Source: Micavibrio sp. (GTDB taxonomy: Bacteria > Pseudomonadota > Alphaproteobacteria > Micavibrionales > Micavibrionaceae). From it: 34,075 nt of DNA. How positions within the stretch are numbered: the first letter of the stretch is position 1; each line of letters opens with the position of its first letter. The DNA is taken from assembly GCA_002687495.1 (NCBI GenBank), contig NZAJ01000048.1, positions 1 to 34,075 of the forward strand, read 5' to 3'. The notes beneath the pieces are model-generated. The model was not told the origin of the DNA and searched no databases. It saw only the letters and a program-made list of their open reading frames with translations. The translations under genes were made by a program, and so were the position numbers. Positions 18,676 through 31,806 of the stretch are shown one piece after another.

Positions 18676-18709
18676 GGCTAGCTCGAGTAAGAATAAACTC
18701 GAGTTAGCC
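18676..18709. terminator. Long hairpin between convergent purC and nadK
   Basis: GGCTAGCTCGAGT (18676-18688) pairs with ACTCGAGTTAGCC (18697-18709) with a single G-T pair, forming a 13-pair stem around an eight-base loop. There is no T tract on either side, and the left arm of the nadK stop lies inside it. It could end or stabilise both convergent messages. Confidence 0.5.
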
Positions 18710-19462
18710 TGTAAATTGCTCTTTAAAAATACGTTCTTCAAGTGTGTTATCTGGATCATAAAGTAGGGTCTTTGTGATCTTACGCGCCTCTTTGATTAAA
18801 ACTTCACGCACATGACGCACTTCTTTAGAATCCGCGCTCACGGATACAGGGCGTTCAACTGACTTTTTAACTTCAAATAAAATTTTTGAGTTATTGCGAA
18901 GGACAGCCCCCGGCCAACGTCTAGGACGAAAAGCAGAAATCGGTGTGAGGTTCAAAACATTCGCATCCATTGGCAAAATATGCCCGCCCGCAGAGGAATT
19001 ATAAGCCGTAGAGCCTACGGGCGTAGAGACCATCACCCCATCACAGACAAGCTCATCAATGCGAACAACATCATTCACACTAATGCGAATTTTAGCTGAA
19101 TTATGCGTTTCTCTCAAAAGAGAGACTTCATTAAAAGCAACTTGCTTATGCTTCTTACCGTCTTTATCTGTCGCTGTCATATGTAACGGGTGAATATTGA
19201 AACGCTTAGCATTTTGAATGCGCTCAAAAAGTCCGTCTTTCTTATGCTCATTGAGCAAAAAACCGAGCGTGCCGAGATTCATGCCATAAAGCGGCGCAGC
19301 ATAATCTTCATATTCATGCAGGGCTTGAAGCATTGTTCCATCGCCGCCAAGCACTACAATCGCATCAGCCTCTTCAGGGCTAACATGACCATATGTGCTT
19401 TTGAGCTCTTCTAATGCTTTTTGTGCTCGAGGCTTTTTCCCGGCGAAATAGGCAAGTTTCAT
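18704..19462 (-). CDS. nadK: NAD kinase
   Basis: Phosphorylates NAD+ to NADP+. The glycine-rich VVLGGDGTMLQALHE near residue 38, the conserved FNEVSLLR, and VCDGVMVSTPVGSTAYNSSAGG are the family's substrate and catalytic motifs. The 252-residue form lacks an N-terminal extension, which is usual for alphaproteobacteria. The start overlaps the stop of the upstream HTH-phosphoribosyltransferase gene by four bases, so the pair forms one leftward operon linking pyrimidine salvage or synthesis and NADP supply. Confidence 0.95.
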   Translation of the reverse strand: MKLAYFAGKKPRAQKALEELKSTYGHVSPEEADAIVVLGGDGTMLQALHEYEDYAAPLYGMNLGTLGFLLNEHKKDGLFERIQNAKRFNIHPLHMTATDKDGKKHKQVAFNEVSLLRETHNSAKIRISVNDVVRIDELVCDGVMVSTPVGSTAYNSSAGGHILPMDANVLNLTPISAFRPRRWPGAVLRNNSKILFEVKKSVERPVSVSADSKEVRHVREVLIKEARKITKTLLYDPDNTLEERIFKEQFTG

Positions 19463-20370
19463 GCCTCAGGCTCCCAGCTATTTGGGTCTTTCAAGAAAGA
19501 TTCAACAGACTTTAATGTTGCCTTATCGAAATATTTCTCTGCCTTAGCCAATGCAAGCACATCCCACCAAGTAGCAAGGGAAAGCAAATTGATTCCCATT
19601 TTTTCCATGTTTTCTTCGCTCGCTGGGAAAATACCATAGTGAAAGATTACAAATGTATGGCTTACTTCTGCATCAGCCATTCTCAAGGCGTTGATGAAAA
19701 TCTCTTTACTGCCGCCATCGGTTTGCAAATCTTCAACCAAGATCACTTTAGGCTTGCTGCCATCTTCCATTTTTTCAGGAAGATGTCCTTCAATTTGTCC
19801 CATGCGTCCATAGCCCTTAGGGGCTTTGCGCACATAAATCATAGGCTTTTCAACACGATCTGCGATAAAAGCACCATAAGGAATACCAGCCGTTTCACCG
19901 CCAGCCACATAGTCTATATTCTCTAAGCCAATTTCGTTGCTAATGAGCTGCGCTGCCGCATTCATAAGCTTTGAGCGTGCTTCAGGGAAAGAAACAAGGC
20001 GGCGGCAATCAATATAAACTGGAGATTGGCGTCCGGATTTAAGTGTGAAAGGCTCTTTCGCATTGAACAGAACAGATTTTGTATCAAGCAAAATCTTCGC
20101 AGTCATCTTAGCCATTTCGCCCTTATCAAAGGGCGCGGCTGTGACACCAATCAACGCGATAAAGTCTGACATCGTGCAATTAGTGGCAGCTAGAATTTTA
20201 GAAATACTCTCTGTTGAAGGCCAGCGCGGTTTGTCATCCGGGCTGAAACGCTTGCTTTTGTTAAATGAGGTCGGATCCAGTCCCGCATGTTTCGCCAGGC
20301 CTGAAGGGGAGTAACCGTACTTAGTTGCTAGCCTATCAATTGCTAGCCAAATTTCATCGTGAGTCAACAT
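19459..20370 (-). CDS. pyrE: HTH domain fused to orotate phosphoribosyltransferase
   Basis: A 303-residue two-domain protein. Residues 1-75 are a Cro/CI-like helix-turn-helix (YSPSGLAKHAGLDPTSFNKS, then RWPSTESISKILAATNC) of the kind found at the front of S24 repressor-peptidases in alphaproteobacteria. Residues about 88-303 are an orotate phosphoribosyltransferase: FTLKSGRQSPVYIDCRR, the flexible loop VRKAPKGYGRMGQIEG, and the PRPP-binding loop VILVEDLQTDGGS (209-221), all intact, so catalysis to OMP is expected. The ATG at 20370 lacks a ribosome site, whereas an internal ATG at 20115 (M86) follows AAGGG by four bases and would give a plain PyrE. Both products are possible. The pairing of domains recalls PurR, an HTH-PRTase regulator, though the folds used differ. 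Confidence 0.9.
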   Translation of the reverse strand: MLTHDEIWLAIDRLATKYGYSPSGLAKHAGLDPTSFNKSKRFSPDDKPRWPSTESISKILAATNCTMSDFIALIGVTAAPFDKGEMAKMTAKILLDTKSVLFNAKEPFTLKSGRQSPVYIDCRRLVSFPEARSKLMNAAAQLISNEIGLENIDYVAGGETAGIPYGAFIADRVEKPMIYVRKAPKGYGRMGQIEGHLPEKMEDGSKPKVILVEDLQTDGGSKEIFINALRMADAEVSHTFVIFHYGIFPASEENMEKMGINLLSLATWWDVLALAKAEKYFDKATLKSVESFLKDPNSWEPEA

Positions 20371-20429
20371 AGGAGGATAGTCCCATTTTTACGCGCAAAA
20401 ATAAATAGGAATAAAATCTTATTTTTTCC

Positions 20430-20476
20430 TTGACTTCATAATAATCTTATAGCATAAAAGAGAACATAAAGGGAAC
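20430..20476 (+). promoter_or_regulatory. Promoter overlapping a LexA-like (SOS) box at the prophage edge
   Basis: TTGACT (20430-20435) and CATAAA (20453-20458) are spaced by 17 bases and point into the phage cassette. Immediately downstream, GAAC (20462-20465), seven bases, GAAC (20473-20476) matches the alphaproteobacterial LexA operator GAAC-N7-GAAC and would cover the start of transcription. The site also lies 92 bases upstream of the divergent HTH-OPRT gene. Confidence 0.5.
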
Positions 20477-20517
20477 ACTTGTATCCAAAATAAATATAAA
20501 AAAGAGATTTAGAAGAC

Positions 20518-20982
20518 ATGAGCAAAATGAAAAATAAAATAAATCAATATGATAGTGCTGATCTTGGTAAAGAGCTTCACCCTTTTGAGGATGCACAAGA
20601 AGCATGGTTTTGGTTCATATCTGCTCAACAAGCTAAGAATGAAGGGGCTAAATTTGTAGCGGGACAAAGTGTGTATAACCGTCCATGCGAGCCAATTGAT
20701 ATCTTGAAGACGCTTGATCGTCTTTATCGTAAGCGCCGCCTTCAAAAAGATCACTTACTCGTCTTGCGCCATTATGGCCGCCGTTACATGGCGCCAGACC
20801 CACGACGCGTTAAGGAACAACGCAGCTATTACCTTTGGCAAGAAGCGCTAGAGTGTCTGGGTGAGGCTTTAGAGACTAAAGGCATTATTAAAGCGCAGCG
20901 CCAGCCTCACGAAAATTGGGCGCAAGAAGCCTTACTGTTTGAAAATCAATATCCAACAACATTGAATGGGGAGAGATTCTAA
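20518..20982 (+). CDS. Phage-associated hypothetical protein, possible regulator
   Basis: A 154-residue basic protein at the head of the cassette. I recognise no named domain. The centre (CEPIDILKTLDRLYRKRRLQ, then DHLLVLRHYGRR and PDPRRVKEQRSYYLWQEALECL) is helical and reads like a helix-turn-helix or antitermination-type protein, and similar short proteins occur in front of portal genes in alphaproteobacterial phage islands (from memory). Its position directly behind the SOS-like promoter fits a regulatory role. The ribosome site AGAAG is close to the ATG; a second ATG at codon 4 is possible. Its stop shares a base with the next start. Confidence 0.72.
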   Translation: MSKMKNKINQYDSADLGKELHPFEDAQEAWFWFISAQQAKNEGAKFVAGQSVYNRPCEPIDILKTLDRLYRKRRLQKDHLLVLRHYGRRYMAPDPRRVKEQRSYYLWQEALECLGEALETKGIIKAQRQPHENWAQEALLFENQYPTTLNGERF

Positions 20983-21467
20983 TGAATATTCAAAAATCAG
21001 AACACACAAAAGCTTATGTTATTTTTAGCCCGCAAGCGGATTTACCATGGCTGAAAGTTTTAAAGGTTGGGTTTAGGCATTGCGCGATCATTATGAATGA
21101 TGGGCAGCATTGGCTCACGATTGATCCGCTCTCTAACTACACTGAAATCCTAGTGCATGATATGCCCGCGGACTTTGATCTGCCGGCATGGATGAGGCGG
21201 CGAGGTCATATGGTCGTTGAAGCGGAGATTTCAAAGCCATGTAAAACTGCACCAATAGGAGTTTTTAGCTGTGTTGAAGCCGTAAAACGTGTGCTTGGTA
21301 TTCATAACCGTTTTGTGATTACGCCTTATCAACTCTACCGCTATTTGATGCGCGCAAATGAAGCGAAAGCGAAAAAATCTAGCGCATATGAGCATCAAAA
21401 TAACGGCCTTAATACAATCGATTATTCTAACCTCTTTACGCAAGGAGCCTTACAATGGGAAGCTTAA
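20982..21467 (+). CDS. Possible permuted papain-fold cysteine peptidase (phage)
   Basis: 161 residues, hypothetical. A His in GFRHCAIIMNDGQHWLTIDPL comes before a Cys in GVFSCVEAVKRVLGI, which is the order of active residues in circularly permuted NlpC/P60-like (papain-fold) proteins; the CVEAVK helix is typical of the cysteine helix. No signal peptide is present. In the phage setting it could act on peptidoglycan or as a processing peptidase. The function is inferred from motif order only. It overlaps both neighbours (1 base before, 13 bases after), so it belongs to the same transcript. Confidence 0.65.
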   Translation: MNIQKSEHTKAYVIFSPQADLPWLKVLKVGFRHCAIIMNDGQHWLTIDPLSNYTEILVHDMPADFDLPAWMRRRGHMVVEAEISKPCKTAPIGVFSCVEAVKRVLGIHNRFVITPYQLYRYLMRANEAKAKKSSAYEHQNNGLNTIDYSNLFTQGALQWEA

Positions 21468-21796: not shown

Positions 21797-23371
21797 ATGA
21801 CATTACAAATATTAGAAACTCAGCGCGATGAGCCTGAGATTGTTCAAGCGCGCTTAAAGTCTGTTATGCGCCGCTATGAAGCTGCGATGAAAAAGCGAGG
21901 CGGCTGGGAAAATATATGGCAGGAATGCTATGATTATGCACTCCCGCAACGCGGCGGCTTTACGCATAAGCCTCTTAACGGTGCGCGTAAAAAAGATCAT
22001 ATCTATGACGCGACAGCCATGGATGCAGCTGATAGGCTTGCGGCCTCAATGCTTGGGAATTTAACGCCTAGCTGGTCGCAATGGTTTGGCTTGAAACCTG
22101 GACCAGCTGTTAGTGATAAAGAAGCCGAGCGTTTAGCACCCGTCTTGGAAAAAGCGGCTCGGGCTGTGCAGGATCATTTTGATCGCTCGAATTTTGCCGT
22201 GGAAGTGCATCAGTGCTATCTCGACCTCATTGTCGGGGGGACAGCAAGTCTAGTCTTTGAAGAATCTGAGCCGGGAAGTTTTTCGGCTTTTAATTTTGCA
22301 GCTATACCGCTGACCCATCTGGTTTTAGAAGAGGGGGTTAATGGTACGCTTGATGGAGCTTATCGCCAAATGGAGCTTTCTTTAGGGCAGCTCAATGCCC
22401 GTTATGAAGACGCTATTATTCCCGATGAAGTTTATAATCGTGCCTCCCGTGATCCCCAAGCACGTTTTAAGGTGCTGGAAGCAATCATGCCTGATGAGCT
22501 TGTCTATAGCTATCACGCCATATTGATGGATGTGGGTGATGCGCCATATTTACTGAGCAATGGCCGCTTTAATAGCTCGCCAATTATTTCTTTCCGTTGG
22601 CTAAAAAGCCCAGGTGAGATTTATGGCCGCTCGCCTGTGATGAAGGCGCTGCCAGATATTAAAACAGCCAATAAAGTTGTCGAGCTGATTTTGAAAAATG
22701 CGTCGATCTCAGTAACAGGAATCTGGCAAGCTGATGATGATGGCGTGCTAAATCCAGCAAATATAGATTTAACACCAGGCAGTATAATCCCCAAAGCCAT
22801 AGGCTCTAAGGGGCTGCAGCCACTTTCTATGCCCGGCAGTTTTGACGTCTCGCAGCTTGTTCTTGAGAGTTTGCATTCGCGCATAAGATCAGCGCTTCTC
22901 TCTGATAAATTGGCGCCGATTTCTGGGCCTTCTATGACAGCAACCGAGGTGTTGGAGCGCTCTGCGGAGATGGCTTTGGTCTTGGGTGCGACATATGGGC
23001 GTCTGCAATCAGAGCTTCTAACGCCGCTTATAAAACGCGCTTATATGATTTTAAAACGCAGAGGCGAAGTGCCTGATATCGATCTTGATGGACGTTATGT
23101 GATGGTTGATTATCGCTCACCTTTGGCGCGCTCACAAGCGCAGCGCAATGTGCAAAATACACTCAGCTGGATAAATTCTGTCATGGCGATGGGCCCTGAA
23201 GCGCAAGCAGCTATGAATCTACCCAAAGCGGCGCGCTATCTGGGAGATGTACTAGGCGTACCAAGCGATCTTATTCGTAAGCAAGACCCAGTTGTAACGC
23301 TCGCGCAAAATGTGAAGCAAGATGCTGAAAAGCTTAGTGCGCAATCTCAATCTTCAACCATAAAGGAGTAA
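21797..23371 (+). CDS. Portal (head-tail connector) protein, T7 gp8-like
   Basis: Dodecameric ring at the packaging vertex of a podovirus. The 524 residues match T7 gp8 in size (536). Family features include the N-terminal WENIWQECYDYALPQ, DATAMDAADRLAASMLGNLTP, the stem-region PGEIYGRSPVMKALPDIKTAN and MTATEVLERSAEMALVLGATYGRLQSELL in the C-terminal part. AAGGATAATAAATC precedes the ATG. The scaffold gene follows by 6 bases. Confidence 0.93.
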   Translation: MTLQILETQRDEPEIVQARLKSVMRRYEAAMKKRGGWENIWQECYDYALPQRGGFTHKPLNGARKKDHIYDATAMDAADRLAASMLGNLTPSWSQWFGLKPGPAVSDKEAERLAPVLEKAARAVQDHFDRSNFAVEVHQCYLDLIVGGTASLVFEESEPGSFSAFNFAAIPLTHLVLEEGVNGTLDGAYRQMELSLGQLNARYEDAIIPDEVYNRASRDPQARFKVLEAIMPDELVYSYHAILMDVGDAPYLLSNGRFNSSPIISFRWLKSPGEIYGRSPVMKALPDIKTANKVVELILKNASISVTGIWQADDDGVLNPANIDLTPGSIIPKAIGSKGLQPLSMPGSFDVSQLVLESLHSRIRSALLSDKLAPISGPSMTATEVLERSAEMALVLGATYGRLQSELLTPLIKRAYMILKRRGEVPDIDLDGRYVMVDYRSPLARSQAQRNVQNTLSWINSVMAMGPEAQAAMNLPKAARYLGDVLGVPSDLIRKQDPVVTLAQNVKQDAEKLSAQSQSSTIKE

Positions 23372-23377
23372 AGTATA

Positions 23378-24037
23378 ATGACTGAAGAAACGAGTAACCT
23401 CTTAATCGAAGATGTCGATCCGGCAATCATTCCAGATAAATTTAAAAACCCTGAAAGCGGCGCGCTGCGTCTTGAAGCGCTTGTGAATTCATATGCTGCG
23501 CTTGAGCGTAAAATGTCATCTGCCCCTTCAGTACCCAAAACGCCTGATGAGTATTGCATTAAATGCGATCACGGTCTTTTTGAAGCTGATGCAGATGTGA
23601 ATGATCGCTTATATCGCTCCGGCTTTACACAGGAGCAGGCACAAGCAGTATATGATTTAGCCGCTGAAAAAATGCTGCCGATGATGAAAGAGCTAGCGCA
23701 CGATTTTGCGGCTGATCGAGAGTTGGAAAAGCTTGTCTCTCATTTTGGTGGGCAAGAGCAGTGGCGTATGGTTTCTAAGCAATTACTCTCATTTGGTAAA
23801 AAGAATTTGCCTTCTGATGTGCTTGAGAACTTAGCCAGCTCTTATGAAGGGGTTTTGGCTCTTCACCGTATGATGAAGACGGAAGAGCCAAGTTTAAAGC
23901 GTGCAGACACGCCAGTAAATCATGTGCAAGATGCTGATCTGCAATCTATGATGCGAGACCCGCGCTATTGGAAAGATAAAGACCCTGCATATATTGCAAA
24001 GGTGACAGAAGGCTTTAAACAGCTATACGGAGAGTAG
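23378..24037 (+). CDS. Capsid assembly scaffolding protein, T7 gp9-like
   Basis: Internal scaffold that guides procapsid assembly. 219 residues, acidic in the first half, with the frequent scaffold phrase PDEYCIKCDHGLFEADADVNDRLYRSGFTQEQAQAVYDLA followed by helical segments and a C-terminal DPRYWKDKDPAYIAKVTEGFKQLYGE, the type of end that binds capsid. It is shorter than T7 gp9 (about 307). The position between portal and capsid supports the call. The AGGAG ribosome site is ten bases upstream. The convergent PilZ gene ends 10 bases beyond the stop. Confidence 0.85.
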   Translation: MTEETSNLLIEDVDPAIIPDKFKNPESGALRLEALVNSYAALERKMSSAPSVPKTPDEYCIKCDHGLFEADADVNDRLYRSGFTQEQAQAVYDLAAEKMLPMMKELAHDFAADRELEKLVSHFGGQEQWRMVSKQLLSFGKKNLPSDVLENLASSYEGVLALHRMMKTEEPSLKRADTPVNHVQDADLQSMMRDPRYWKDKDPAYIAKVTEGFKQLYGE

Positions 24038-24047
24038 GGCGGAGAGG

Positions 24048-24458
24048 CTATTGAGCCATTTGCGAGTGTGCAAATTCTTCGTTCATGCATTCATTCAGAA
24101 TAGACTCGAAGTTTTTGCGCCCTTTGCCTGTTAAAGGTGCAAATTGAAAAGCGATGTTGTTTGAGTTCTTGCGAATAACGCGCGCGAGCTGAGTGACGTC
24201 TCTCATATCATTTTCAAATTTGAATTTGATAGTGAGGCCAATCTCATCATCAACAGAGAATAGGCGTTCATCAGCGCGGATTAACGCCCCACCGATTGAC
24301 CAGTTTTGTATAGGGTAGACTTTGTTTTCAATTAAAGCCACGCAACGATCATTATCACGACGCTGATGACGTCGCTGATGCGTTTCAAGCTCACTGAATG
24401 GTAAGCTCTGGCCATTATTATTATTGGCATTTAAAGTTTTGAAAAAACGACTAAACAT
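24048..24458 (-). CDS. PilZ-domain protein, antisense cargo gene in the phage cassette
   Basis: Predicted c-di-GMP receptor of 136 residues. The PilZ hallmarks are R34-xxx-R38 in RRDNDR and N52-x-S54-x-x-G57 in QNWSIGGALI, both needed for c-di-GMP binding. A charged low-complexity linker (ANNNNGQ) precedes the domain, and there is no membrane segment. It is the only leftward gene in the phage cassette, lying between scaffold and capsid, which points to a separately expressed cargo (moron-like) gene. Its promoter should be in 24459-24590. Binding partners are unknown. Confidence 0.85.
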   Translation of the reverse strand: MFSRFFKTLNANNNNGQSLPFSELETHQRRHQRRDNDRCVALIENKVYPIQNWSIGGALIRADERLFSVDDEIGLTIKFKFENDMRDVTQLARVIRKNSNNIAFQFAPLTGKGRKNFESILNECMNEEFAHSQMAQ

Positions 24459-24594: not shown

Positions 24595-24623
24595 TTGACT
24601 TTTTATGATTTTATTCCTACAAT
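24595..24623 (+). promoter_or_regulatory. Strong promoter upstream of the capsid gene
   Basis: TTGACT (24595-24600) and TACAAT (24618-24623) are spaced by exactly 17 bases. Transcription would start near 24630, giving the capsid gene a leader of about 165 bases. Needed because the antisense PilZ gene separates the capsid from the portal transcript. Confidence 0.65.
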
Positions 24624-24795: not shown

Positions 24796-25632
24796 ATGTC
24801 TACATCCATAGACCAGGCCTTCATTAAGCAGTTCGAAAAAGAAGTGCATATGGCCTATCAGCGTCAGGGTTCTAAGTTAAGAAACACTGTGCGCACAATC
24901 AATAATGTTAACGGCTCCAGCGCGGTCTTTCAAAAGATCGGTAAGGGCACGGCCTCGACTAAATCCACGCATGGCATGGTGCCGGTGATGAATCTAGATC
25001 ACTCTAATATCGAGGTGATTTTAGAGGATTTCTATGCCGGAGATTGGATCGATCGTTTGGATGAGCTAAAGCTCAATATCGATGAGCGTCAAGTAATCGC
25101 CGCTGCTGGTGCGAGTGCTTTAGGCCGCAAAACAGATGAGTTAATCCTAAGCGCCTTAGAAGACGCATCAAGCAATACGATCGCTGATGGGAATGAGGGC
25201 ATGACAAAAGCCAAGATCTTAGAAGCTTTTGAAATGTTCGGAGAAGCGGATGTGCCCGATGATGGCCAGCGCTTCTGTATTGTTGGCTGGAAGCAATGGT
25301 CAGAATTACTGACAATTGAAGAGTTTATCAACGCTGATTACGTCGGCACAGACTCGCTTCCTTTCTCAGGCGTCACGCAGGCCAAGATGTTCCTCGGCAC
25401 GCTCTTTATTCCTCATTCAGGCTTGCCTGTAGATGAGAACGATATCCGCTCATGCTTCTGGTATCACAAAACCGCTGTGGGTCACGCAAGTGCTTCCGAT
25501 GTGGAAACAGATGTGACATGGCATGGCGATCGCGCTGCGCATTTCGTCAATAACATGATGAGCCAAGGCGCTGGCCTAATAGATGAAGCAGGCGTGATTG
25601 TCATTAACTGCGATGAAACGCCAGACGCGTAG
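24796..25632 (+). CDS. Major capsid protein
   Basis: Main head protein of the podovirus-like particle, 278 residues. It starts with STSIDQAFIKQFEKEVHMAYQRQGSKLRNTVR, then a capsid-type N-arm and strands, with FYAGDWIDRLDELKLNIDERQVIAAAGASALGRKTDELIL matching the spine-helix region of this capsid family, and ending VNNMMSQGAGLIDEAGVIVINCDE. It is smaller than T7 gp10A (345). AAAGGA lies nine bases upstream of the start. Its position after the scaffold and before the decoration and tail genes fits. Confidence 0.9.
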   Translation: MSTSIDQAFIKQFEKEVHMAYQRQGSKLRNTVRTINNVNGSSAVFQKIGKGTASTKSTHGMVPVMNLDHSNIEVILEDFYAGDWIDRLDELKLNIDERQVIAAAGASALGRKTDELILSALEDASSNTIADGNEGMTKAKILEAFEMFGEADVPDDGQRFCIVGWKQWSELLTIEEFINADYVGTDSLPFSGVTQAKMFLGTLFIPHSGLPVDENDIRSCFWYHKTAVGHASASDVETDVTWHGDRAAHFVNNMMSQGAGLIDEAGVIVINCDETPDA

Positions 25633-26212: not shown

Positions 26213-26782
26213 ATGGCCTTAAATGATGTAGCTCTATGTGCGCGTGCCCTTATTCGTATTGGCGCGAGCCCAATCACCAGCTTTTCGGACGGCTCAGCCG
26301 AAAGCGAAGTGGCTGGCGCTTTATACGAGCCTGTGCGCGATGCGCTGCTCTCCGCTTATCCGTGGAGTTTTGCAACCGGGCAGATTGAGCTAAGTCAGCT
26401 CGAAGATGCACCGGAAGCAGATTTCTCTTATGCTTATGCGCTGCCGAATGATTATTTGCGCGCCATCTCTGTTGGCGGGAATGCGAAAGGGCGAGGGCTT
26501 AAATATCGCATCATGGGTGATGCACTTCATTGTGATGCGCCAAATGTTCTGCTCACTTATATTTACGCCCCTGATGAAAGCGCTTTTCCGCCATATTTCG
26601 ATCAAGCCCTCATCGCGCGTTTATCAGCTGAATTTACAATTCCCGTCACCGAGAGTACGTCTCGGGCAGAAATGCATTATAAGCTCGCAGAAAAAGAGTT
26701 AGATCGCGCCCGCCAGATCGACGCGCAATCCGATACGCCAAACGCGATTGATAAATTCACGCTGATTGATGTGCGGGGCTGA
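26213..26782 (+). CDS. Tail tubular protein A, T7 gp11-like
   Basis: Gatekeeper between portal and tail nozzle. 189 residues, nearly the length of T7 gp11 (196). Typical features are LCARALIRIGASPITSFSDGSAESEVAGALYEPVRDALLSAYPWSFA near the start and FSYAYALPNDYLRAISVGG. The ATG follows AGGA with suitable spacing. It is directly followed, after the cargo-like gene 26849-27124, by the gp12-like gene, as in T7. Confidence 0.92.
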   Translation: MALNDVALCARALIRIGASPITSFSDGSAESEVAGALYEPVRDALLSAYPWSFATGQIELSQLEDAPEADFSYAYALPNDYLRAISVGGNAKGRGLKYRIMGDALHCDAPNVLLTYIYAPDESAFPPYFDQALIARLSAEFTIPVTESTSRAEMHYKLAEKELDRARQIDAQSDTPNAIDKFTLIDVRG

Positions 26783-27183: not shown

Positions 27184-27305
27184 ATGGCCTGCATTCTCGG
27201 GATTTAAGGAAACAAAGAATAGTGATTTTGGGCTTGTCTAAAATTGTAACACTGCGAGCGCAACCGCGAAGTGCCCGAAGGGCGAAAATACTAAAAGGAA
27301 AAATA

Positions 27306-29204
27306 ATGACAAGAATACGTGAAGTAAAAACCACCTTCACCGCCGGTGAAGTGTCTAGTGATTTGCTAGGGCGCGGGGATTTGCGCGCCTATGAAAATGG
27401 AGCTTTAGCGCTTCGGAATGTGTTTATTAAGCCAACAGGCGGCGTGCGCAGAAGAGATGGGCTAGGCTATATTGATACAGCGGCAGGGGCAGGTAAGCTT
27501 ATCGCCTTTGAATTTAACACCGAGCAAACATATCTGTTGGTCATCACAGATGCACAGATTGATATCTATGCGGATGGGGTGAAGGAAGCGACTATAGCTG
27601 CACCATGGAGCGCGAGCCAAATCGATCAGCTCGCTTGGACTCAGAGCGCCGATACGCTGCTTTTGACTCACCCTGATGCTCCGCCCAAAAGGTTGGTGCG
27701 CACAGGGGCAGGCAGTTGGAGTTTGCTAAGCTGGAGCTTTTTCAGCGATGAAAATATTATTTATCAACCCTATTATAAATATGCAGACTCTGAAGTCAGC
27801 GTGACCCCGAGCGCTGTGAGCGGCGATATTACTCTCACCGCCTCCGCAAGTGTCTTTGAGGCTGATCATGTTGGAACACGTATGCGCGTTGCAGGTGCAG
27901 AGCTTGAGATTACAGATTTTGACTCAGCGACAGTTGTAAGCGCAACAACGATTGAGGATCTGCCCTCAAGCGATGAAACAATCGACTGGTTCGAGCAAGC
28001 GTTCAGCCCGGTGCGTGGTTACCCCGCGACAGTCGCTTTCCACCAAGATCGCCTTGTGATAGGAGGCTCAAGAGATTTGCCAAACCGTATGTGGTTTTCC
28101 AAAAGCGGAGATCTCTTTAATTTTGATTTGGGAGAGGGCTTGGATGATGAAGCGATAGAGTTCTCAATTCTCTCTGATCAGGTCAATGCAATTCGAGCAG
28201 TTTTTTCCAGCCGGCACTTGCAGATTTTCACCTCAGGCGCGGAATGGGTCGCAACAGGTGACCCGCTAACCCCAACAAGTGTGCAAGTTAGCCGCCAAAC
28301 ACGTATTGGCTCAGTCGTGGATAGGCATTTAAGGCCGGTAACCGTGGATGGGGCGACGATTTTTGTAGCACGTAATAAGGAGCAAATTCAGGAATATATC
28401 TATACCGACTTAGAGGAGGCGTATCAGTCTAATGATTTAGCGCTGCTCTCGCGTCATGTCATTCAATATCCTGTTGATATGGATTATGACCCTAAAAAGC
28501 GCCTTTTATTTGTGGTGCGTGAGGATGGAGCCTTTGCAGCGCTCACAGTTTTTCGCGCCGAACAAGTCTCCGCGTGGACGCTGCATGAAACGGATGGGCA
28601 AGTGCTCTCTGTCGCTGTAGTGGGCGAGGAGGTTTATATGCTGATTTTAAGAAATGGCCAATATCTCATAGAGTTACTCGATCAATCTTTATATATGGAT
28701 TCAGCACTGAGTGGTGAAAGCGGCGCCGCGACGACAAGTTGGTCAGGTCTAGATCACTTGGAAAACAAGCAAGTCTCTATATTGGCGGATGGGCAGGTTG
28801 CCGCCTCACAAATAGTCGCCAGTGCGCAAGTCAATCTCGAAGAGGCCGCAAATGCGGTGCAGATAGGCTTACCTTTTACGCATAAAATAGAGCCACTGCC
28901 TCCGAGCGAACTAGGAGCGGCAGGTGGTGGACGCAAAATTCGCTTGGTTGAAGCAGCTTTTCGCTTAAAGGATACGCAAAGCCTGAATGTCGATTTAGGG
29001 CGCGGTCTTCGCGATATTCCCCTGCGTCAAATTGGCGAAGATGAAGTCCTTGACGAGCCGCCACCCCAAATCAGCGGCGATATAAAGCTGCGCGGTTTAG
29101 GCTGGGTCAATGATTCAATAAAGCCGCTTTGGACGATCGAGCAAGCTGATCCGTTAAGCTTCACGCTGCTCAGTGTAACCACGCAAATCAAAGTAAATGA
29201 CTAA
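27306..29204 (+). CDS. Tail tubular protein B (nozzle), T7 gp12-like
   Basis: Forms the tail nozzle. The start at 27306 (MTRIREVKTTFTAGEVSSD) is supported by AAAGGA upstream; the frame runs further back to 27222 but without a ribosome site. The typical opening LLGRGDLRAYENGALALRNVFIKPTGGVRRRDGLGYID is clear, with later phrases such as GSRDLPNRMWFSKSGDLFNF and TSVQVSRQTRIGSV also common to gp12-like proteins. The 632 residues are shorter than T7 gp12 (794). A terminator (27151-27183) lies just before it, so a promoter is needed in 27184-27300, though none is obvious. Confidence 0.9.
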   Translation: MTRIREVKTTFTAGEVSSDLLGRGDLRAYENGALALRNVFIKPTGGVRRRDGLGYIDTAAGAGKLIAFEFNTEQTYLLVITDAQIDIYADGVKEATIAAPWSASQIDQLAWTQSADTLLLTHPDAPPKRLVRTGAGSWSLLSWSFFSDENIIYQPYYKYADSEVSVTPSAVSGDITLTASASVFEADHVGTRMRVAGAELEITDFDSATVVSATTIEDLPSSDETIDWFEQAFSPVRGYPATVAFHQDRLVIGGSRDLPNRMWFSKSGDLFNFDLGEGLDDEAIEFSILSDQVNAIRAVFSSRHLQIFTSGAEWVATGDPLTPTSVQVSRQTRIGSVVDRHLRPVTVDGATIFVARNKEQIQEYIYTDLEEAYQSNDLALLSRHVIQYPVDMDYDPKKRLLFVVREDGAFAALTVFRAEQVSAWTLHETDGQVLSVAVVGEEVYMLILRNGQYLIELLDQSLYMDSALSGESGAATTSWSGLDHLENKQVSILADGQVAASQIVASAQVNLEEAANAVQIGLPFTHKIEPLPPSELGAAGGGRKIRLVEAAFRLKDTQSLNVDLGRGLRDIPLRQIGEDEVLDEPPPQISGDIKLRGLGWVNDSIKPLWTIEQADPLSFTLLSVTTQIKVND

Positions 29205-29233: not shown

Positions 29234-29752
29234 ATGGGTGCAGTAACATCAATCGCCAGCGGTCTTGGCTCAGTCGCCTCAACGCTTGGCACGGTCAATA
29301 CGATCGTTGAAACAGTAGAAACGCTAAGCGGGAATTCGGCTGAAAAACAAGCGCAAGATTTAGCGCTGCGTCAACTTCAAGACGCTCAAAACTTACAGCA
29401 ATCACAACTGGCGCAGCAAACAGCGCTAGATAGACAGCAGCTAGCAGATGCGCAGGCGCAGGAGGAAAAAGAGCGTAAAGATGCTCTTAAACGCGCAGTC
29501 GCAGCGCAGCGCGCAAGCTATGGCGCGAGTGGGGTAAGCTCTTCTGGTGGCAGCGCACAAGCTGTCTTGTTGGGGATGTTTGATCAAACCGAAGATGAGT
29601 TAGAAGCGGCTCGTAAATCAACGGCGCTTAAAAATGCAGCCCTCGATCTGGAGCTGGAACAAAGTAAAGCACTTAATGTTTTGCAATATTCTCAGCTCCA
29701 GCAAAGCCAAAAACTCAATGATGAAATCGATAGTTTTAGCGATTTATTTTAA
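29234..29752 (+). CDS. Probable internal virion protein, T7 gp14-like position
   Basis: 172 residues, Gln- and Ala-rich with strong coiled-coil character (QDLALRQLQDAQNLQQSQLA and similar). The N-terminus is Gly/Ser/Thr rich (GAVTSIASGLGSVASTLG) and might insert into membrane. Its place between the nozzle and the tail fibre corresponds to T7 gp14, an internal/ejection protein of similar length (196), but T7 gp15- and gp16-like genes are absent. The assignment is by position and composition only. AAGGAG precedes the start. Confidence 0.6.
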   Translation: MGAVTSIASGLGSVASTLGTVNTIVETVETLSGNSAEKQAQDLALRQLQDAQNLQQSQLAQQTALDRQQLADAQAQEEKERKDALKRAVAAQRASYGASGVSSSGGSAQAVLLGMFDQTEDELEAARKSTALKNAALDLELEQSKALNVLQYSQLQQSQKLNDEIDSFSDLF

Positions 29753-29778: not shown

Positions 29779-31806
29779 ATGACCGAGCATGTGAAAATGC
29801 CCGCTATAACGCCGATCGTGCGTTATGTGGCAAATGGTGAGCAAGTTGAGTTTGAATATGGCTTTCCGATCTTCGCCTCTGAAGATTTAGCGGTTTATAT
29901 AGATGGCGCAAAGCAGGTCAGCGGCTATAATATCTCTGGCGCTGGGCAAACTGCCGGAGGAAGTGTGAGCTTTGAAGCGGCTCCCAATGAGGGGGCAGTC
30001 ATAACGCTGGCGCGTGAACTACCAATTGAGCGTATTACTGACTTTCTTGAAGGCGGTGATTTTAGCGCCTTATCGATCAATACAGAGCTGGACTATATGG
30101 TCGCAGCCCTGCAACAAGTTAATCGCGAAAATGATTTGATGTTGCGCTATAGCGATCATGAAACGCCAGCGAATGTCGAACTACCCAGCCGATCTGAGAG
30201 AGCAAATAAAGCGCTGGGCTTTGATGGTGATGGTCATCCGGTAGCACTAAGTCTTTCTGAAGCGGTGGTGAGTGCGCCGAGCGATTTTATGGCGCAAGGC
30301 ACAGGTGCGGCTACGCGTCTTTCGAGTGACAAGCTTGCTGATATGATTTCGATCAAGGATTTTGGCGCCATAGGCGATGGCCTTACCAATGATACAAATG
30401 CGATCATAAATGCGTTAAGTGCACATGACACGATCTATATCCCGCCAGGTGAATATCTCATAAGCTCCACTATTCAAATTGGCGCAGGAAAAACCATAGT
30501 CGGTGCGGGCGATAGTGCGATCCTTAAATGTCAAAGTAATAGCTTTAATGCTTTAGAGCTTGTTGCTGATTTTATTAAGCTTTCTGGTTTTAGGATTGAA
30601 GGTGGCGATATCGGTATTAAACTCTATGGCTTGCTTAGGCCTGTTGTTCAGCTCAGCATCACAGACATCACGCTCATTGGCCCCAATATTGGCGTGCAGC
30701 TTGATGGCTATGACGATACGAATAAGCCTTGTTATTGGAATAACTTCTCACGCATTCTTGTGGAGCAGCCTGCGCAATATGGCTTTCACCTAACGCTCAG
30801 TGGAAACGGCGATACCCCGAATGCGAATAAGTTCCATGCTTGCAGGGTATATAGCCATGGCGCCGCTATAACGGGCGCTGGCTTTTATATTGAGCATGGG
30901 CGCTATAATAATGCTTTTATTGATTGTGAAGCCAATGTCGATGGCGGCGCAGATGGGTGCTTTATTATTGGTGCAGGGGCAGGGGAGACGATCCTGATTA
31001 ACCCCTATGCCGAGAGCTTTAACCTTGTTCCTAATGTAAAGCTTGAAGCCAGTTCTTCCGAAACCTCGATATATAATCTGCTCTCGGTCAGTAATGGCGC
31101 AGCAATTTATGATCTTTCAGGTGGAGCATATAGTGCTTATAATGCAGGCTATCCGAACAAGAATTACCTGCAAAAAACAGCCTGTGTCGATATGCTCTCA
31201 ACCCTGCAGAGATACGACACTGAATATATAGATTCGAGTGGTGGCGTTTCTTTGGATTTATCGCACTCTATTCATTTGGTTTCAAGCTATGGCGGCGCAT
31301 TAACCGTCAATCTTCCGCAGGCATCCGAGAGCACAGGCGCAATGATGGTCATTAAGAAAACAGATAGCTCTGCCAATGTGATAACAGTCGCAGAAACCGA
31401 TGGAAATGGCCCCGATGGGCGTAGCTATTTTCTAGGCGTTGAAAATGATTATGTGATGATGCTCTCAAATGGTGCTGAATGGTTTGTAATTGCCTCAAAT
31501 AGATCACCTGGAAATACGCGCTATTATGATGGCACGGGCACATATGACATCGATATGGCCACCGATACATATCTATTATCTAGCTATTCAGGAACGATGA
31601 CAGCGCGCTTACCGCCCGCAGATGCAGCAGAGGCTGTGGGCCGCACAATTACGATCAAAAAGACCGACAGCTCCTCAAATGTTATCACAGTGAGCGAGCA
31701 AGGCGGTTCTGGTCCAGATGGATATGCACAGCCGCTTTCCTCTCAATATGACGCGCTGAGTGTCGTCTCTGATGGAAATCAATGGTACATCATTTCTAAA
31801 TTCTAA
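29779..31806 (+). CDS. Tail fibre/spike with pectate-lyase-like domain and tandem C-terminal modules
   Basis: Receptor-binding protein of 675 residues. Residues 1 to about 150 resemble the T7 tail fibre virion-binding domain (VANGEQVEFEYGFPIFASEDLAVYIDGAKQ). Residues about 190-470 form a right-handed beta-helix of the pectate lyase superfamily (KDFGAIGDGLTNDTNAI, YIPPGEYLISS), common in depolymerising spikes. The end holds two related modules of about 100 residues, marked by IKKTDSSANVITV (from residue 525) and IKKTDSSSNVITV (from 626). This could bind or cut capsular polysaccharide; active residues cannot be assigned. AGGAG precedes the start. Confidence 0.88.
   Translation: MTEHVKMPAITPIVRYVANGEQVEFEYGFPIFASEDLAVYIDGAKQVSGYNISGAGQTAGGSVSFEAAPNEGAVITLARELPIERITDFLEGGDFSALSINTELDYMVAALQQVNRENDLMLRYSDHETPANVELPSRSERANKALGFDGDGHPVALSLSEAVVSAPSDFMAQGTGAATRLSSDKLADMISIKDFGAIGDGLTNDTNAIINALSAHDTIYIPPGEYLISSTIQIGAGKTIVGAGDSAILKCQSNSFNALELVADFIKLSGFRIEGGDIGIKLYGLLRPVVQLSITDITLIGPNIGVQLDGYDDTNKPCYWNNFSRILVEQPAQYGFHLTLSGNGDTPNANKFHACRVYSHGAAITGAGFYIEHGRYNNAFIDCEANVDGGADGCFIIGAGAGETILINPYAESFNLVPNVKLEASSSETSIYNLLSVSNGAAIYDLSGGAYSAYNAGYPNKNYLQKTACVDMLSTLQRYDTEYIDSSGGVSLDLSHSIHLVSSYGGALTVNLPQASESTGAMMVIKKTDSSANVITVAETDGNGPDGRSYFLGVENDYVMMLSNGAEWFVIASNRSPGNTRYYDGTGTYDIDMATDTYLLSSYSGTMTARLPPADAAEAVGRTITIKKTDSSSNVITVSEQGGSGPDGYAQPLSSQYDALSVVSDGNQWYIISKF

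Follow-up and report, generated by a model that had tools for sequence, protein, structure and literature searches.

The window analysed here, a stretch of 34,075 nucleotides from Micavibrio sp. (positions 1 to 34,075 of contig NZAJ01000048.1, assembly GCA_002687495.1), contains a gene that joins a Cro/CI-type helix-turn-helix (HTH) in frame to a complete orotate phosphoribosyltransferase (OPRT, encoded by pyrE), divergent from a cluster, or cassette, of T7/podovirus-type virion genes (Table 1). The fusion is genuine, conserved and under selection. We consider it likely that the protein is a bifunctional enzyme-repressor, in which an OPRT dimer would take the place of an S24 domain and palindromic sites would let it control both the particle cluster and the operon it belongs to. 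As far as sequence comparison indicates, one protein probably serves both metabolism and the timing of particle production.

The joining of an HTH to an intact OPRT, claimed by an earlier sequence-only reading of this DNA, was borne out at the level of domains. Residues 81-300 match the OPRT family NCBIfam NF001729 (307.9 bits; cut-off 245), and residues 11-73 match Pfam HTH_26 (22.8 bits; cut-off 22). The OPRT carries the sequence VEDLQTDGGSK, which we take to be the phosphoribosyl pyrophosphate (PRPP) motif, and YVRKAPKGYGR, presumably the catalytic loop, and these motif blocks recur in a 19-row alignment of fused proteins. With the family model over its cut-off and the motifs intact, this half of the protein looks catalytic. 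The AlphaFold model of the full fusion predicts two folded domains (residues 1-73 and 83-300) at a mean predicted local distance difference test (pLDDT) score of 89, with a weak linker at residues 76-79 between HTH and OPRT. The closest solved structure is the OPRT 4ohc, with a template modelling score of 0.88-0.91 on the target and 52-53% identity. Folded alone, the HTH reached a pLDDT of 95 and its top Foldseek rows were XRE/Cro-type regulators, at a non-significant best E-value of 0.026; a sequence search for a solved relative of the HTH returned two catenins (E 0.33 and 0.7) and no relative. The fusion was the single match in its own genome, which is 90.5% complete, and is thus the sole OPRT match detected there, the stand-alone pyrE that the reading had suggested looking for not being among the matches. 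The gene shares four nucleotides with nadK, and the two probably form one operon.

The distribution search covered 94 genomes including the window's own, 60 of its family and 34 others of its order (genomes, loci and families carry our labels G, L and f). Matches were found in 85 of them, and three family genomes (G021, G030 and G052) gave no match at all. The full-length fusion in one frame is present in 19 of the 60 family genomes, the window's own included, across 10 genera and in all seven genomes searched from the window's genus; it was found in none of the 34 genomes of the order outside the family. It is the sole match in 18 of the 19 fused genomes, G001 adding a weak second one (E 5e-4). 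In a class-wide sample of 385 evenly drawn genomes, for which the result tables hold the best rows, the full-length fusion appeared, among the matches listed, just in the family members G000, G006 and G015, and it is also present in four of 27 named loci (NORP106, NORP84, 1_bin.40 and OFTM66), all four labelled Alphaproteobacteria. A fusion this common within its own lineage, which the sequence-only reading had counted against itself beforehand, loses its uniqueness and leaves the functional proposal unaffected. Because 18 further genomes hold full-length homologues (62-73% identity) and the HTH codons show low ratios of non-synonymous to synonymous substitution rates (dN/dS), a chance or frame artefact is excluded.

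For the HTH, six fused pairs were compared: four gave ratios of 0.010, 0.019, 0.026 and 0.076, two were saturated and give none, and dS is high throughout. Values in the fused pairs were 0.019-0.122 for OPRT, 0.051 for capsid, and 0.030 and 0.131 for portal, further pairs again being saturated; in one pair, the two leading cassette genes rise to 0.23 and 0.42. Segments of the HTH are near-invariant in the 19-row alignment. Since dN/dS is low, the HTH codons are selected as protein, which answers the worry, raised beforehand, that the HTH is untranslated and the internal start alone is used.

The same HTH occurs as a separate gene in 45 further loci, with 63-81% HTH identity among the matches listed; compared to unfused HTHs, nearly all of them from loci beside homologous virion clusters, the window's HTH shows 57-76% identity. 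The 19 fused and 45 unfused loci together make 64 HTH loci, for which the first HTH match per locus was used in counting operators. Within the 200 nt upstream of the 64 HTH starts, the palindrome GGA-N6-TCC occurs 63 times, compared to a shuffled mean of 1.4, and is found in all 19 fused and in 31 of the 45 unfused loci. A pair of such sites, corresponding to O1 and O2 in the window and mostly 36 bp apart, was scored in 19/19 fused and 30/45 unfused loci, and in one of 320 shuffles. A third site, O3, precedes the major capsid gene. Once capsid-upstream regions shorter than 500 nt had been left out, reducing 41 loci to 34, O3 with at most one mismatch was present in 26 of the 34 regions (shuffles 1.1; control tiles 15/665) and in perfect form in 13 (shuffles 0.03; control tiles 3/665). 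It is kept in 13 of the 14 fused loci with a capsid-upstream region in hand; in G012, a site is kept about 230 bp upstream of capsid although fusion and capsid gene, both on one contig, are 78 kb apart. G005 was considered as a second moved capsid operon and rejected, its fusion lying at a contig end and its portal and capsid together on another contig. The 20 IMG/VR loci that have the HTH include two fused ones; eight of the 20 show the exact GGA-N6-TCC and five the LexA-type box described below, with degenerate GGA-N6-TCC forms, judged by eye, at the same places. These candidate palindromes make the earlier idea of an enzyme-regulator acting on its own nadK operon and on the phage cassette probable: two fall inside or border the stretch that the reading had named (20371-20517), and a third is found at the capsid operon.

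A genome-wide regulon was considered and rejected, since away from these places sites are no more frequent than background: the perfect form TRGGA-N6-TCCYA occurs three times in the window's genome versus six for the reversed pattern, and 36 versus 48 times in ten relatives. In 15 site loci read, out of 39 sites, no gene recurs besides the fusion start and the capsid operon.

The TTGAC of the putative cassette promoter adjoins O1, and GTCAA stands beside O1 in most loci among those listed. Also at the cassette promoter lies a GAAC-N7-GAAC box, which we take to be the alphaproteobacterial LexA motif. Such a box is single in the window, where 0.59 would be expected by chance, and is found in 16/19 fused and 34/45 unfused loci and in 0/320 shuffles. 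The gene lexA was found in 7/7 genomes, truncated in the window's own, and the box precedes lexA in all three loci read (two come from one genus), which supports the LexA reading of the box at the cassette.

The unfused relatives point to where the HTH came from. The unfused proteins exceed 150 residues in 38 of the 45 loci, 35 of these 38 having 200-234 aa. Among three tested against S24 (PF00717), two match and the one from Micavibrio has no match. The Ser-Lys dyad of S24 is intact in 21 of the 38 long proteins. Seven genomes hold a short HTH open reading frame (ORF) of 72-133 aa; G050, one of these, retains a degenerate remnant of S24. No S24 match was obtained in the 19 fused loci. The HTH thus appears to derive from an S24/LexA-type repressor, usually encoded divergently beside a podovirus-like virion cluster in its unfused relatives. 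Cassette genes share the stretch with the HTH in 56 of the 64 loci. In 39 of the 45 unfused loci, pyrE lies downstream on the same strand as the HTH gene, in 21 of them within 90 nt; of the six without nearby pyrE, four (G008, G025, G046 and G062) have the HTH gene adjoining cassette genes. In G056, an unfused repressor with a degenerate S24 part adjoins the same virion cluster.

This layout resembles that of RogA (CCNA_00080) of Caulobacter crescentus, a 213-aa protein with an HTH and a LexA/CI-like domain without catalytic residues, which represses the activators gafYZ of a gene transfer agent (GTA) and whose target promoter holds GGAA-N4-TTCC repeats, according to the parts of the paper available (PMC9632790). 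As far as that description goes, RogA has an N-terminal HTH like that of the fusion, its operator is a case of GGA-N6-TCC, and its HTH plus S24-like layout is shared by the unfused relatives, often with a broken catalytic dyad. We call the HTH RogA-like because the architecture of its unfused relatives, the operator and the distribution match, RogA having been compared by description only. The fusion differs in that its C-terminal part is an OPRT and not S24-like, and in its likely target, a podovirus-like cluster in cis and not gafYZ of an RcGTA-type cluster. The cluster in cis is the likely target because an HK97/RcGTA-type capsid gave no match in any of seven family genomes tested, with a positive Caulobacter control.

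Taken together, we propose the following mechanism. The full-length fusion would be made from a mostly leaderless ATG. OPRTs act as homodimers, and the homodimer would substitute for S24 as the dimeriser, setting two HTH heads on GGA-N6-TCC, with O1, O2 and O3 as the putative operators. Once bound, the fusion would repress the virion genes as well as the pyrE-nadK operon to which it belongs; from the site positions, O2 would mediate autorepression, O1 dual control and O3 control of the capsid operon. Repression is preferred over activation because of the RogA analogy and the position of O2. LexA might add a DNA-damage gate at the cassette promoter. The least certain step is that PRPP, orotate or orotidine monophosphate (OMP) bound to the OPRT alters DNA binding, so that particle production would follow the pyrimidine state; such ligand control is plausible. 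The widest version, in which a GTA-type repressor swapped a DNA-damage-type sensor for a pyrimidine enzyme, probably repeatedly, and the release of podovirus-like particles is gated by orotate/PRPP together with LexA, is a tentative proposal with the balance against it.

Several observations weigh against the enzyme-repressor reading. The O1+O2 score is not reached in 15 of the 45 unfused loci, and the regulon seems tiny, because sites elsewhere are at background level. In the stretches read, the unfused HTH gene of G023 and G024 has neither pyrE nor cassette genes nearby and the first cassette genes are missing from eight of the 64 HTH loci; G043 has an adjoining cassette and pyrE, yet no HTH match. 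The fused genomes G003 (99% complete) and G037 (97% complete) keep the fusion while searches for portal and capsid gave no match, and in fused G004 the portal is split over two contigs and the capsid search gave no match. Finally, activation at O1 in place of repression is conceivable.

The strongest alternative holds that the OPRT is a mere dimerisation module and abundant carrier, the repressor being locked on and freed only by LexA/SOS or by turnover, without metabolite sensing; its chance falls somewhat short of even. Regulated cleavage looks dispensable, because S24 is so often degenerate or cut short among the unfused repressors, as the incomplete conservation of the dyad and the truncated ORFs illustrate. 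The LexA-type box is retained in most fused loci. The frequent position of pyrE as a simple downstream neighbour of the HTH gene would explain the choice of enzyme without sensing. Against this stands the probable fusion of the same enzyme more than once, a weak argument given that neighbourhood.

A second alternative concerns translation. As the sequence-only reading had claimed, the full-length ATG has no Shine-Dalgarno string upstream, whereas the internal ATG at codon 86 has AAGGG four bases upstream, from which two products, HTH-OPRT and OPRT, might be made. In five of the seven genomes of the window's genus, a linker ATG (codons 78-92) is accompanied by a Shine-Dalgarno-like string, some strings being rather far from the ATG. 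However, the linker ATG is missing from nine of the 19 fused genes, and it has a Shine-Dalgarno-like string at most 18 nt away in five of the 19, all five in the window's genus, leaving 14 without the combination. Two products are therefore not a general feature of the fusion, and we regard their production as unlikely. Since O2 abuts the ATG or sits just upstream of it in many loci, the window included, the missing ribosome site of the full-length ATG can be explained by a leaderless start. In fused G015 and G051, O2 lies further upstream and GGGAG or GGAG precedes a TTG start.

A third alternative, that the cassette is an ordinary temperate prophage with a captured repressor and not a domesticated GTA-like element, also seems improbable to us. 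Relatives do occur among viral contigs: of 195 IMG/VR relatives, 80 were kept, and these show the same HTH and virion gene order, with the HTH in 20 (the others are often incomplete) and OPRT adjoining in two. Virion and lysis genes are both present. The window ends at the terminase; the region beyond was read in G059 and G056. Past the terminase, G059 has a cell wall hydrolase (PF07486), a match to a holin model named for gene transfer (PF11351, GTA_holin_3TM) and, two ORFs on, host folD. The holin match speaks against a prophage, as does the fact that no integrase, nor any other integration or replication gene, was seen by eye among the ORFs of G059 and G056 or by Pfam among eight G059 proteins. 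Families f1, f2 and f7 share the cluster's location next to pyrE-nadK, and five cassette proteins have distances that correlate with nadK and purC distances (Mantel r 0.42-0.78), none of 999 permutations being as high except for capsid versus purC (2/999). HTH distances also track nadK and purC (r 0.45 and 0.40); correlations with OPRT are weaker (cassette 0.16-0.44, HTH 0.19; up to 42/999 permutations as high). Together with the dN/dS values, this indicates that the cluster is inherited vertically and under purifying selection. A host-type PilZ gene is embedded in it, at 24048-24458 on the opposite strand between scaffold and capsid. In families f3 and f5, PilZ lies near pyrE on the same strand in 7/7 fetched loci (L096-L101 and L103), with no cassette match there. 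That the two genes are close in loci without a cassette match suggests that the element entered between or around PilZ and pyrE.

Beyond the family, capsid was found in 92 of the 385 class genomes; among the matches listed, 58 genomes from 34 families have E 2e-85 or better and at least 51% identity. The nearest capsid of a named isolated phage is that of Pelagibacter phage EXVC031P (50% identity), and a 5-kb fecal contig reaches 57%. A podovirus-like cluster, often beside a RogA-like HTH gene, is therefore widespread in Alphaproteobacteria and a candidate for a second kind of alphaproteobacterial GTA.

A fourth alternative, in which the HTH mainly autoregulates pyrE-nadK and the virion cluster is a fading passenger, has a slim chance. 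It would account for the overlap of O2 with the fusion's own start, the four nucleotides shared with nadK, and the fused genomes G003 and G037. Against it, O3 is kept in nearly all fused loci that could be read and moved along with the capsid operon in G012, and portal and capsid have low dN/dS in the fused pairs.

As for the origin of the fusion, 17 fused rows form one clade of the OPRT tree (Shimodaira-Hasegawa-like approximate likelihood ratio test 98), and G007 and G037 are placed elsewhere. Parsimony gives three changes, the starred branches forcing at least two, and gain and loss are indistinguishable by count. This suggests that the fusion arose more than once. A single gain followed by losses is formally conceivable and less likely, because a reversal must bring S24 back and G007 has as its tree neighbours G045, G014 and G050, each with a short HTH ORF. 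The likelier route, judged from these arrangements, is that S24 was lost first and the HTH was then fused to the adjacent pyrE, more than once. In locus L050 of G045 (positions 669-1578), an 80-aa HTH-only ORF shares 14 nt with the OPRT ORF, which is in a different frame; this arrangement, from the genus of fused G007, may represent an unfused, frameshifted or nearly fused state. It is scarcely credible that the fusion is an assembly artefact or arose by accidental read-through and left the HTH without function: pyrE originally adjoined the HTH gene and unfused G009 and G060 hold both parts in one frame (stop codons between them led us to reject these two as in-frame fusions), but 19 genomes share the fusion with near-invariant HTH segments, purifying selection and retained operator-like sites.

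Among known systems, PurR of Bacillus subtilis likewise has a DNA-binding head on a phosphoribosyltransferase (PRTase) fold, with a different HTH type and a different PRTase. The comparison with PurR made by the sequence-only reading fails, and a PurR-like origin was rejected, as the fusion scores 20.1 bits against a TIGR01743 cut-off of 258.7; its PRTase, moreover, looks catalytic. BirA, PutA and NadR are enzymes that double as repressors in a single chain; compared to them, the repressor half of the fusion would come from a phage-derived cluster, its original sensor domain exchanged. Lambda CI and LexA-type S24 repressors combine an HTH, divergent promoters with shared operators and a link to SOS, whereas the fusion has a housekeeping enzyme in place of the self-cleavage domain. 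FpGTA of Faecalibacterium is a GTA-like element described as most likely podovirus-like (PMC12946183); its host is not an alphaproteobacterium, and the available part of that paper describes no such repressor. BaGTA of Bartonella, compared by description only, was rejected as the same element: its paper lists capsid, portal and terminase and calls it unrelated to RcGTA, and the string "podovir" is absent there. The available part of the genome paper of the predator Micavibrio aeruginosavorus ARL-13, a strain that NCBI's taxonomy assigns to Bdellovibrionota, reports nine islands resembling integrative and conjugative elements and mentions no such virion cluster (PMC3189940). Titles and abstract openings, most subscription papers lying outside, yielded nothing on an HTH-OPRT fusion or a Micavibrio GTA, although two listed papers each contain the terms Micavibrio and gene transfer agent once. 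Across many alphaproteobacterial families, a vertically inherited particle cluster of podovirus-like type emerges, in many cases accompanied by a RogA-like repressor. With an enzyme of known ligands now in the sensor's place, the effect of these ligands on binding to O1, O2 and O3 becomes a simple question; if the proposal is true, a metabolic checkpoint on horizontal gene transfer would be built into an essential enzyme.

Table 1. Features of the fusion locus and of the divergent virion cluster, in window coordinates.
Feature	Position	Strand	Evidence or remark
HTH-OPRT fusion gene	19459-20370	-	single 303-codon open frame, 303 aa
Cro/CI-type HTH, RogA-like, residues 1-75	20146-20370	-	HTH_26; fold match
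OPRT domain, residues 83-303	19459-20124	-	NF001729; identity to 4ohc; alignment motif blocks
Internal ATG, codon 86	20113-20115	-	AAGGG upstream; possible second start, poorly kept
nadK	18704-19462	-	NF003406, 350.3 bits
Candidate operator O2, TGGGACTATCCTCCTA	20370-20385	-	overlaps first base of fusion start codon
Candidate operator O1, TAAGATTTTATTCCTA	20406-20421	-	36 bp from O2, between two divergent promoters
Candidate operator O3, TATGATTTTATTCCTA	24604-24619	+	upstream of major capsid gene
Putative -35-like TTGACT of cassette promoter	20430-20435	+	CATAAA at 20453-20458 fits -10 at 17 bp
LexA/SOS-type box, GAAC-N7-GAAC	20462-20476	+	at expected cassette transcription start
First cassette gene	20518-20982	+	conserved, no family assigned
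Second cassette gene	20982-21467	+	conserved, no family assigned
Portal (head-tail connector), podovirus type	21797-23371	+	PF12236, 471.7 bits
T7-type capsid assembly (scaffold) protein	23378-24037	+	PF05396, 55.6 bits
Major capsid protein	24796-25632	+	PF19821, 277.6 bits
Tail protein	26213-26782	+	phrog_394
Tail protein	27222-29204	+	phrog_376
gp14-like internal virion protein, weak	29234-29752	+	PF24072, 21.8 bits, under cut-off of 27
Tail fibre or spike	29779-31806	+	
Large terminase, interrupted by contig end	33007-34074	+	66% identity to L160 terminase, itself a PF17289 match

A portal match was obtained in 17 and a capsid match in 16 of the 19 fused genomes. An operator-like site also lies near a distant or unlinked pyrE in nine of 33 unfused genes, which we did not use as support. 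In several genomes whose HTH gene and pyrE are set apart (G018, G053, G027 and G056; loci L070, L067, L058 and L052), an operator-like site is found about 250-350 nt upstream of pyrE, and the interval contains a small ORF, about 80 aa long, in G018 and G056.

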